64,000 nt of DNA from Methyloversatilis sp. (GTDB lineage: Bacteria > Pseudomonadota > Gammaproteobacteria > Burkholderiales > Rhodocyclaceae). Each line of letters begins with the position of its first letter. The stretch's first letter is position 1. Positions 41,108-43,792 of this stretch are shown here, in pieces. The position numbers and the translations under genes are program-made. The notes under the pieces are model-generated. The model was not told the origin of the DNA. It ran no database searches and saw nothing but the letters and a program-made list of their open reading frames with translations. The stretch is from positions 1 through 64,000 of the forward strand of contig JAEUNO010000047.1 of assembly GCA_016791045.1 (NCBI GenBank). The letters are read 5' to 3'.

Positions 41108-43792
41108 CTACTTGACCCGCATGCCCGGCGCCGCACCGCTGTCCGGCGACAGGATGAACAGGCCCGGTACTTCGCCGGTGTCGTCGGACGCGGCCAGCAC
41201 CATGCCCTCGCTCATGCCGAACTTCATCTTGCGCGGCGCGAGATTGGCCACCATGACGGTCAGCCGCCCGACCAGCAGCGCCGGGTCGTAGGCCGACTTG
41301 ATGCCGGCGAACACCTGACGCGGCTTGTCTTCGCCGATATCGAGCTGCAGGCGCAGCAGCTTGTCGGCGCCTTCGACATGGTCGGCGGCGACGATTTTCG
41401 CGATGCGCAGTTCGACCTTGGAGACGTCGTCGATGGAGATGAAGCTCCCCTCTCCCGCATCAGCGGGAGAGGGGCCGGGGGTGAGGGTGAGGGTAGATGC
41501 GTTCGTGACCGCGCGCCAGATCGATTCGAGCACGGCTTCGGTCTGTTGCAGCACCTCGTTGTTCCAGTAGCGCAGTACCCGGATACCGTGCTCAGCCAGC
41601 GAGCGGTCGCGATCGCGGTCCTTCAGCGCTGCGTCGGCGTGCTGACCGCCGTCGAGTTCGATGGCGATTTTCTGTTCTGCGGCATAGAAGTCGAGGATGG
41701 CTTTCGCGCCGCCCCCGAGATCGAACGGGTGCTGGCGGCGGAACTTCGCGTTGCCGATCTGGCGGTCGCGCAGCAAGGACCAGATCAGTGCTTCGGCATC
41801 GGTTTGACCGGCGCGCAGTTTGCGGGCCAGTTCGACCAGCGACGCCGGGGCGGAGGCCGGCTTGCCCTCACCCGTCCGCGCTGGCGCGCGGCCACCCTCT
41901 CCCGCTGATGCGGGCGAGGGATTGGAAGCGCCCTTGCCTTTCGCCCCCTCTCCCGCATCAGCGGGAGAGGGCTGGGGTGAGGGCAGCAGACTTTCCTTGT
42001 TGGCGTCGATCAGCGCGACCACCTGCTTGGGGTCGATGCGGGTCATCAGGTGCTTGTATTCGTTGATGGTGTGGCCGGCAAGCAGCAGCTTCGATGGATC
42101 CGGCGTGTTGTGATTCAGCATCAACGAGAAGCTGCGATCGAAAATGAGTTCCGGGCAGTTCAAGAAGGATTCAACCTTGGCTGCCGTCGTGGGCAGTATC
42201 GGTTTAAGTAGCAAAGTAAGTAGGCGAAACAGGTTGATGGCGATGGAGCAGCATTCATGCAAACGCGCTCGGTTATCGCCGACATCAATTTCCTTGGCGA
42301 GCTTCCAAGGCTCCAACTCATTTACGTAGTTGTTTGCAACATCGGCAAGCACCATGATCAGTCGCGCCGCGCGCGCAAAGTCTCGCTTCTCATATGCGTT
42401 AAGTATGTCTTCGGCCGTCGTGTCATACATTCCGATGAGCTGAGCCTGCGGAAGCTGAGTGGGGTCAAATGCGGCGAGCTGCCCTTGGAAGTGCTTCGTA
42501 ATGAACCCCGCACAGCGGCTCGCGATGTTGATGTACTTCCCCACCAGATCCGAATTCACCCGCGCGACGAAGTCGTCGAGGTTCAGGTCGATGTCTTCCA
42601 TCGACCCATTCAGCTTGGCGGCATAGTAATAGCGCAGCCATTCCGGGTTCAGGCCGAGGTCGAGATAGCTCTGCGCGGTGATGAAGGTGCCGCGGCTCTT
42701 GCTCATCTTTTCGCCATTCACGGTCAGGAAGCCGTGCGCGTTGATCTGGGTCGGCGTGCGGTAGCCCGAGTGTTCGAGCATGGCGGGCCAGAACAGGGCG
42801 TGGAAGTACAGGATGTCCTTGCCGATGAAATGGACCATTTCGGTGCCGGCCGCCTTGGCCCCCGCCGCATCGAGGAAGTCCGCTTCGCAGATGTCATTGC
42901 CCAGCGCCTGCTGCTTCGCCACGTAGTTGCGGAAGCTGCCGAAATAGCCGACCGGCGCGTCCAGCCAGACATAGAAGAACTTGTTGTCGGTGCCCGGGAT
43001 GCGGAAGCCGAAGTAGGGCGCATCGCGCGAAATGTCCCAGTCGGACAGGCGGTTGTCGCCCGGCTCGCCCAGCCATTCCTTCATCTTGTTCGCGGCTTCC
43101 GGCTGCAGCCGGTTCGAGCCCTGCGTGAAATCGCGCAGGAACTGTTCGCACTGCGGCGCCGACAGGCGGAAGAAGTGATGTTCGCTGGCGCGCCGCTCGG
43201 GCGCGGCACCGGACACCACCGAATAGGCGTTCTTCAGTTCGGTCGGCGCATAGGTGGCACCGCACACTTCGCAGGAATCGCCGTACTGGTCCTTCGCGCC
43301 GCACTTCGGGCACTCGCCCTTGATGAAACGGTCAGGCAGGAACATTTCCTTCACCGGATCGTAGAACTGCTCGACCGAGCGCTGCGCGATCAGGTCGCCG
43401 GCCTTCAGCTTGCCGTAGATGTCTTCGCAGAAAGCGCGGTTCTCGTCGGAATCGGTCTGGTGGTAGTTGTCGAAACTGACCAGGAAACCGCCCAGCTCGC
43501 CCGCGCCCTTCTTCCACGCTGCCTGCACGTCGAGGCCGCCGAAGAAGTCGCGGGCGTGTTCGTGCAGCACGCGCTCGACCAGCTGGCGCGGCGTGATGCC
43601 TTCCTTTTCGGCGCGCAGCATGATGGGCGTGCCGTGCTGGTCGTCGGCGCCGACGTAATGCACCTCGTGGCCGCGCATGCGCTGGAAGCGCACCCAGATG
43701 TCGGTCTGGATGTATTCGACCAGATGGCCGAGGTGGATGGCGCCGTTGGCGTAGGGCAGGGCGCTGGTGACGAGCAGGCGGCGGCGGGACAT
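41108..43792 (-). CDS. metG: methionyl-tRNA synthetase with in-frame DUF559 nuclease-like insertion
   Basis: An 894-residue class I synthetase. Catalytic core: [12 protein letters not shown] (HIGH), zinc knuckles CPKCG and CEVCG, and KMSKS at residues 362-366. The core and anticodon domains end near residue 597 (IDANKESLL). The C-terminal EMAP/OB tRNA-binding domain resumes at about residue 782 ([18 protein letters not shown]). Between them ~183 residues are foreign to MetRS: linkers made of [12 protein letters not shown] repeats, and at ~650-763 a DUF559/Vsr-like domain ([51 protein letters not shown]). The frame is uninterrupted. The insertion sits in the flexible linker, so aminoacylation is probably retained. 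Confidence 0.93.
41447..41474. repeat. palindromic repeat at the 3' edge of the MetRS insertion
   Basis: CCCCTCTCCCGC and its complement GCGGGAGAGGGG form a 12-bp stem with a 4-base loop (atca). It is followed by the typical ccgggggtgaggg tail, which is also seen (as gctggggtgaggg) after the copy at 41946. It is translated in frame as part of the PSPADAGEG linker. Confidence 0.93.
41895..41971. repeat. pair of palindromic repeats at the 5' edge of the MetRS insertion
   Basis: Two further copies of the same palindrome: ccctctcccgctgat... at 41895-41920 (one stem mismatch) and ccctctcccgcatca... at 41946-41971, opposite to each other in loop sequence. With the copy at 41447-41474 they bracket the DUF559 coding segment. 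They encode [12 protein letters not shown] and [12 protein letters not shown] in the protein. Confidence 0.9.

Follow-up and report, generated by a model that had tools for sequence, protein, structure and literature searches.

How does a nuclease-like domain come to lie in the middle of methionyl-tRNA synthetase (MetRS), an essential enzyme, without breaking its reading frame? The question is raised by the metG gene of a Methyloversatilis species, which lies on a 64,000-nucleotide stretch of DNA (contig JAEUNO010000047.1 of assembly GCA_016791045.1, positions 1 to 64,000) that we call the window. An original prediction, made from the letters of the window, had claimed that the 894-codon frame is unbroken, that it contains a domain resembling DUF559, and that a mobile nuclease module had entered the gene without destroying it. 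We find this observation confirmed and the mobile reading of it supported. Our answer, to which we give a probability of roughly two in three, is that the insert is a small, mobile, homing-like DUF559 nuclease cassette that does not splice, sits in frame and has palindromic ends of the REP/BIME type (repetitive extragenic palindrome/bacterial interspersed mosaic element).

A DUF559 domain in the open frame of MetRS

The metG frame does run without a stop through a DUF559 (PF04480) domain, which scores 100.5 bits against a Pfam cut-off of 20.6 and lies, as had been predicted, between the anticodon domain (Anticodon_3, residues 459–555) and the C-terminal tRNA-binding domain (Table 1). The predicted edges of the insert did not hold, and the foreign stretch runs from ~41446 to ~41986, exceeding the DUF559 domain and taking in three hairpins. 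The domain is the only DUF559 match in its own genome at E 0.001. The earlier statement that no splicing motifs are visible agrees with the Pfam scan of the window MetRS, which reported no intein or splicing family at E up to 0.1, and no intein family was reported in 27 related frames (E to 1e-5 or 1e-6). No ATG, GTG or TTG stands in frame within 45 codons upstream of the window's domain, and an in-frame ATG occurs within that distance in 10 of 29 in-host copies versus 109 of 140 other loci (among which three fusions at a host C-terminus are counted). Translation would run through the host frame, and the nuclease would therefore be made as a fused domain of a full-length product.

The AlphaFold model of the DUF559 domain has a predicted local distance difference test (pLDDT) score of 88.1. 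Its best fold match in the PDB by Foldseek is NGO0050 (3hrl; E 2e-6, the sole match below 0.001), and 5-hydroxymethylcytosine-specific restriction enzymes and the homing endonuclease I-Bth0305I come next at E 0.006–0.04; for I-Bth0305I (3r3p) the probability is 1.00, E is 0.007/0.013 and the template modelling score by target length is 0.77/0.73. A sequence profile search gave 6e-37 for 3hrl and 2.6e-4 for 3r3p, so the nuclease similarity that the original prediction had proposed to look for was found by both methods. The likeness is clear for 3hrl and weaker for 3r3p, and the model suggests a nuclease fold of the Vsr/EDxHD type in which the invariant residues D57, E68, D70 and H74 (A3 numbering) make up a candidate active site. 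Matches of the profile search to enterotoxin and cholera-type B chains in the PDB (E 0.015–0.2) were taken as chance because they are absent from the 50 fold-search matches listed. In a model of the full MetRS the linkers at residues 603–649 and 767–791 have very low confidence, as in a tolerant joint.

Palindromic ends of the insert

The original prediction overlooked the palindromic ends of the insert, its many other host genes and the general association of DUF559 with palindromes. The edges of the insert are GC-rich, REP-type hairpins, two on the 5' side and one on the 3' side, and all three match CCCTCTCCCGCNNNNGCGGGAGAGGG with at most one mismatch. The window holds three matches to CCCTCTCCCGCNNNNGCGGGAGAGGG, against a mean of 0.00 in 100 shuffles, and the 3.5-Mb genome from which it comes holds 20 such places (up to 3 mismatches).

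Table 1. Coordinates in the window of metG, its domains and the parts of the insert
Feature	Position	Strand	Remarks
metG, methionyl-tRNA synthetase with in-frame insert	41108..43792	(-)	894 aa, no internal stops
MetRS catalytic domain, tRNA-synt_1g	42512..43774	(-)	aa 7-427, Pfam
Anticodon-domain stretch of foreign origin in the window genome	42068..42505	(-)	~aa 430-575, dN/dS comparison
5' palindromic end of cassette	41864..41983	(-)	outer arm, two hairpins, inner arm; translated
5' end outer arm CCCTCACCCC	41974-41983	(-)	
Hairpin, exact match to genome-wide repeat	41946..41971	(.)	
Hairpin, one mismatch to genome-wide repeat	41895..41920	(.)	
5' end inner arm GGGTGAGGGC	41864-41873	(-)	
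DUF559 (Vsr-like fold) domain	41507..41836	(-)	aa 653-762, Pfam E 6e-29
3' palindromic end of cassette	41448..41493	(-)	inner arm and hairpin; translated
3' end inner arm CCCTCACCCTCACCCCC	41476-41493	(-)	
3' side hairpin of cassette	41448-41473		
C-terminal tRNA-binding domain, tRNA_bind	41120..41410	(-)	aa 795-891, Pfam

Filled, palindrome-only and empty sites

The metG insert is present in 3 of 13 genomes of the genus (G000, G003 and G008), the other ten having a short linker, and in at least 7 of the 369 genomes of an order scan (the window, five others that Pfam confirms, and G619, whose translation was read). The original prediction had named orthologs that all carry the domain as the sign of an old fusion, and this is not what the genus or the order displays. 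Copies of the palindrome number 20, 37 and 29 in carriers G000, G003 and G008, respectively, and 36 in G002; the remaining nine genus genomes that have no insert hold at most 3. Outside the genus, two genera of the same family have a lone in-frame hairpin in the metG linker, with the CCCTCCCC core at locus L030 and a different core at L027.

Comparable series exist in two other genes. At one site in hrpA, locus L206 is filled and L210 has the palindrome pair only; at a second hrpA site L210 is filled and L206 is empty, and the flanking BIMEs are direct repeats. A loop in bioF is filled in G236 and G401 (in G401 the core hairpins are confined to the 3' side), holds one core hairpin and no nuclease in G111, is plain in G399, and is longer and free of hairpins in G340. 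The palindrome-only state therefore occurs in three hosts, metG, hrpA and bioF, and in the same three genes relatives differ in presence and absence at one site, as is expected of an in-frame mobile cassette. Cassette ends also differ in length between close relatives. Among the three genus carriers the DUF559 domain has ratios of nonsynonymous to synonymous substitution (dN/dS) of 0.06, 0.12 and 0.20 and a dS that resembles that of the host parts of the gene, and the insert is therefore old in the genus and under purifying selection.

Conflict between nuclease and host trees

On the DUF559 tree the in-host copies cluster (15 rows, three of them near-copies from one genus; 3 changes versus 14.2 when shuffled), and the main in-host clade, with support of 88/89, also contains three free-standing copies; a tree of 51 copies was built from in-host DUF559 only. 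The metG inserts stay together on the nuclease tree, with 2 changes among 11 rows versus 9.6 when shuffled, and the gidA, asnB, ygiQ and hrpA pairs need 1 change each. On the tree of the MetRS hosts, from which L303 was left out because its linker anchor was not located, the insert requires 7 changes among 10 rows, at least 4 of them forced by well-supported branches. The nuclease tree joins L173 to the window genus (99/93) and L174 to the other metG inserts (93/87), whereas the host tree places L173 and L174 together on one side of a 100/99 split and the window genus apart. Because the two trees conflict over L173 and L174, they point to horizontal movement of the insert between MetRS alleles, and two changes on the nuclease tree versus seven on the host tree is the pattern that homing would be expected to leave. 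Together with the filled, palindrome-only and empty sites, this conflict speaks for the earlier proposal that a mobile nuclease module entered an essential gene and left it intact.

Part of the anticodon domain in the window metG has a history of its own (Table 1). Compared with G008, G003 and G001 it has a dN of 0.38–0.40 and a dS of 1.10–1.16, versus a dS of 0.22–0.38 for the parts of metG before and after it. This foreign segment lies a short way upstream of the cassette and is possibly a trace of co-conversion in the course of homing, or of a separate recombination event. The genes next to metG, at 40786-41136 and 43966-45054, we take to encode an acylphosphatase and an ATPase of the Mrp/ApbC type.

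Palindromes flank DUF559 in general

Flanks were compared in two samples. In the class sample of 369 genomes, DUF559 was found at E <= 1e-15 in 78, and 88 copies were analysed (the remaining listed rows, mostly weaker or partial, were left out), 83 of which had 200 bases on both sides. The second sample comprised 80 loci drawn by a query built from in-host copies, 74 of them with sufficient flanks. The flank was measured to the stop codon for vsr genes and to the end of the domain for DUF559. Hairpins stand on both sides of 68 of the 83 DUF559 copies versus 14 of 91 control open reading frames (ORFs) of the same loci in the class sample, and of 63/74 versus 33/206 in the second; for vsr genes from the class sample the count is 2/30. 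A word of at least 14 bases is common to both flanks in 51/83 copies versus 4/91 controls (one of them seemingly a second DUF559 frame) and in 44/74 versus 2/206, vsr genes having 0/30. The core motif lies on both flanks of 35/83 and 31/74 DUF559 copies, respectively, and of no control ORF (0/206) or vsr gene (0/30); on at least one flank the figures are 55/83 and 53/74 versus 16/206 and 0/30. The hairpins are also oriented relative to the domain: with the samples pooled, the G-rich arm is inside the upstream hairpin in 58 of 107 cases versus outside in 3, and the C-rich arm is inside the downstream hairpin in 49 of 91 versus outside in 2.

Across the 369 class genomes, at least five palindromes were present in 52 of 78 that have DUF559 versus 33 of 291 that do not (odds ratio (OR) 15.6). 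REP-associated tyrosine transposases (RAYTs) were considered as the driver of the palindromes, and their link was found to be weak over all 369 genomes (OR 2.1, p 0.006); no clear effect is seen among genomes without DUF559 (OR 1.7, p 0.2), and the DUF559 link stands both in RAYT-positive genomes (39/54 with DUF559 versus 22/162 without) and in RAYT-negative ones (13/24 versus 11/129).

Other genes that hold the nuclease in frame

MetRS is one host of many. Of the 88 DUF559 copies in the class sample, 12 were judged to lie within a host frame or at its end, and 19 of the 80 loci in the second sample have a frame in common with a host gene, two of them (L224 and L187) on one side only. The order scan gave 30 loci, of which 25 were looked at (the window's own and four with internal stops were excluded); 22 of these had frames of at least 180 aa, 19 were scanned with Pfam, and a host domain was found in 17 of the 19. 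The hosts with Pfam support are MetRS, ValRS, MetH, MnmE, an HrpA-type helicase, a Mur ligase, a class-III aminotransferase (read as BioA), a class I/II aminotransferase (read as BioF), AsnB, RecG, HsdM, a lipoyl ligase, MnmG, radical-SAM/DUF3362 proteins, a HODM-like protein and TatD; the names BioA, BioF, HrpA, YgiQ and SelD and those of most restriction-modification hosts were assigned by reading of the translations. MetRS of other lineages also holds the cassette in frame, and in-host copies span several phyla. Restriction-modification genes are frequent hosts, and in the HsdM of L132, L181 and L184, which belong to different lineages, the nuclease entered at what reads as one site.

Out-of-frame insertions were sought with 31 in-host proteins as baits, and the search was therefore able to find those hosts only. 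Both host flanks were found at 14 of 168 loci, in frame on both sides at 12 and shifted on one side at 2, and no free-standing locus with both host flanks was found among the 168 with these baits. A viral scan gave 52 loci, three of which are 24-residue matches (63%) and the others at most 49% identical.

A proposed cycle and its alternatives

The cycle that we propose for the cassette is as follows. Palindromes would establish themselves in a tolerant loop or linker; an unfilled site, either a palindrome or the orthologous site of a host gene, would be cut by the nuclease, and repair from a filled copy would write the nuclease into the cut. Recombination between the flanking palindromes may later remove the nuclease, leaving an in-frame palindrome as a scar; the palindrome-only state may come before the filled one or after it. 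In essential genes the survivors would be insertions that preserve frame and fold. The cassette would enter coding genes in frame and stay in the protein much as a homing element does, with neither an intein nor an intron. Tentatively, and with confidence that falls a little short of an even chance, we extend this to a widespread and undescribed selfish class of bacterial elements made of DUF559 and BIME-type ends: non-splicing homing cassettes that would use CCCTC...GAGGG palindromes as ends and landing sites, would spread palindromes independently of RAYTs, and would include a sublineage adapted to in-frame life inside essential enzymes.

Several results weigh against the cassette as a mobile, homing-like nuclease. 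The nuclease tree was built from 106–114 columns and its bootstrap values were not yet stable; the support of its in-host clade is only 88/89, and the tree scatters the copies in HsdM (4 changes in 6 rows), HsdS (3 in 4) and mod (3 in 3). As few as 7 host-tree changes were reached in 41 of 500 shuffles, and some of these changes may be losses. The age of the metG insert appears to equal the host split within the genus, where no recent jump is visible because the dS of the insert is about that of the host. The inserted domain has a low pLDDT in the full-length MetRS model, because the alignment is shallow, with only six rows that contain the domain. At L224 and L187 the host frame is not kept on one of the two sides; these cassettes lie in hsdS and in a DUF1156 methylase gene, which are likely broken hosts. 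Palindromes reach five copies in 33 of the 291 genomes without DUF559 and fail to do so in 26 of the 78 with it, counts that ignore relatedness and depend on a cut at five that was our choice. G002, a genus member rated 100% complete, has no DUF559 at E 0.001, and no nuclease remnant was found in three of its palindrome stretches (L253–L255). Palindromes therefore do not always need the nuclease, or it has been lost. In G002, palindromes appear able to persist without a detected resident DUF559.

The abundance of palindromes in these genomes, G002 included, is what one would expect if DUF559 were a passenger and another enzyme, RAYT or some other, spread the palindromes and occasionally carried a nuclease gene between them. 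The weak overall RAYT link fits this too, as do REPs inside ORFs of genomes outside Rickettsia, for which the available part of the source names only transposases as nucleases (PMC3733652). We hold this account unlikely, as RAYT has no clear effect where DUF559 is absent, related vsr genes are seldom flanked by hairpins, and the hairpins keep a consistent polarity relative to the DUF559 domain. An old fusion that passed down vertically with frequent losses and served the host in defence or DNA repair would account for the purifying selection on the domain, for its age near the host split in three species and for the relatedness of all 11 metG inserts; it could also draw on VsrA of Caulobacter, a DUF559 protein that the accessible part of its report describes as a predicted Vsr-like repair endonuclease with a functional link to a cytosine methylase (PMC12907096). 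It is quite improbable given that the insert is missing from 10 of 13 genus genomes, that host and insert trees disagree, that one and the same cassette is shared by many genes of unrelated function and that palindromic ends are unexpected for a plain fusion.

Removal of the segment from protein or RNA as a cryptic intein or intron would suit in-frame insertion into essential genes, which is intein-like, and in the portion available of one cyanobacterial paper a Thermosynechococcus DUF559 gene is mentioned in a section on inteins and DUF559 is assigned to the EDxHD homing family (PMC9403480). We consider it very improbable: Pfam reported no splicing domain in the window protein and 27 related frames, and the ends are REP palindromes whose length changes from one close relative to the next, within linkers that were modelled with very low confidence. 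Although metagenome-assembled genomes and drafts are numerous among the records, an assembly or binning artefact is scarcely credible, since three species of one genus share the insert with matching flanks and it also occurs in single-contig genomes (G166 and G568) and in the named strains Runella zeae, Mariprofundus erugo, Stagnimonas aquatica and Methylomonas sp. WSC-7.

Comparison with known systems

A palindrome-bounded in-frame domain in many unrelated genes points to mobile DNA of a type that has received little attention and spares host function. If the homing-like cassette is what we take it to be, it would be a mobile element of bacteria whose way into essential genes is to be translated along with them and not to be spliced out; it would give DUF559, a common domain of unknown function, a likely role, would be a second driver of bacterial palindromic repeats besides RAYT transposases, and would show where some new linker domains of housekeeping enzymes come from. 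In the literature covered, which consisted of titles and starts of abstracts with few subscription papers or preprints, neither a palindrome-DUF559 cassette nor its in-frame occurrence in housekeeping genes is described.

Five known systems resemble it in part, and what follows is drawn, where papers are cited, from the available parts of those papers. Rickettsia palindromic elements (RPEs) are ~150 bp long, encode a short conserved peptide and lie in frame in unrelated genes (PMC10969869). Both systems thus place palindromic repeats in frame in unrelated protein-coding genes, but the present palindromes bound a folded nuclease-like domain of ~110 aa in place of a short peptide; judged by that description of RPEs, the linkers with a palindrome only at L027 and L030, and likewise the bioF loop of L259, may act much as RPEs do. 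VsrA of Caulobacter (CCNA_02930) likewise has a Vsr-like DUF559, but it is encoded by a gene of its own, which was examined for a connection with a cytosine methylase (PMC12907096). I-Bth0305I, an EDxHD/Vsr-like enzyme (PMC3943268), shares a related fold, a weak sequence match and a patchy, allele-specific host distribution with the cassette, which differs in having no detected self-splicing intron or intein, in staying in frame and in its palindromic ends. Inteins with homing endonucleases also occupy conserved genes in frame and form clades by orthologous site, but Pfam detects no splicing domain around the cassette nuclease. REPtrons (REP/REPIN with RAYT; PMC3733652) have BIME-like paired palindromes around an enzyme gene and many genomic copies. 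The gene of the cassette is a nuclease-fold domain and not a Y1 transposase, none of which lies between the palindromes here (the single Y1_Tnp match of the genome is on another contig), and in the 369 genomes palindrome abundance tracks DUF559 far more than RAYT. The defining features of an intein and of a REPtron are thus both missing from the element, and for the present the most fitting name is a homing-like variant that does not splice.
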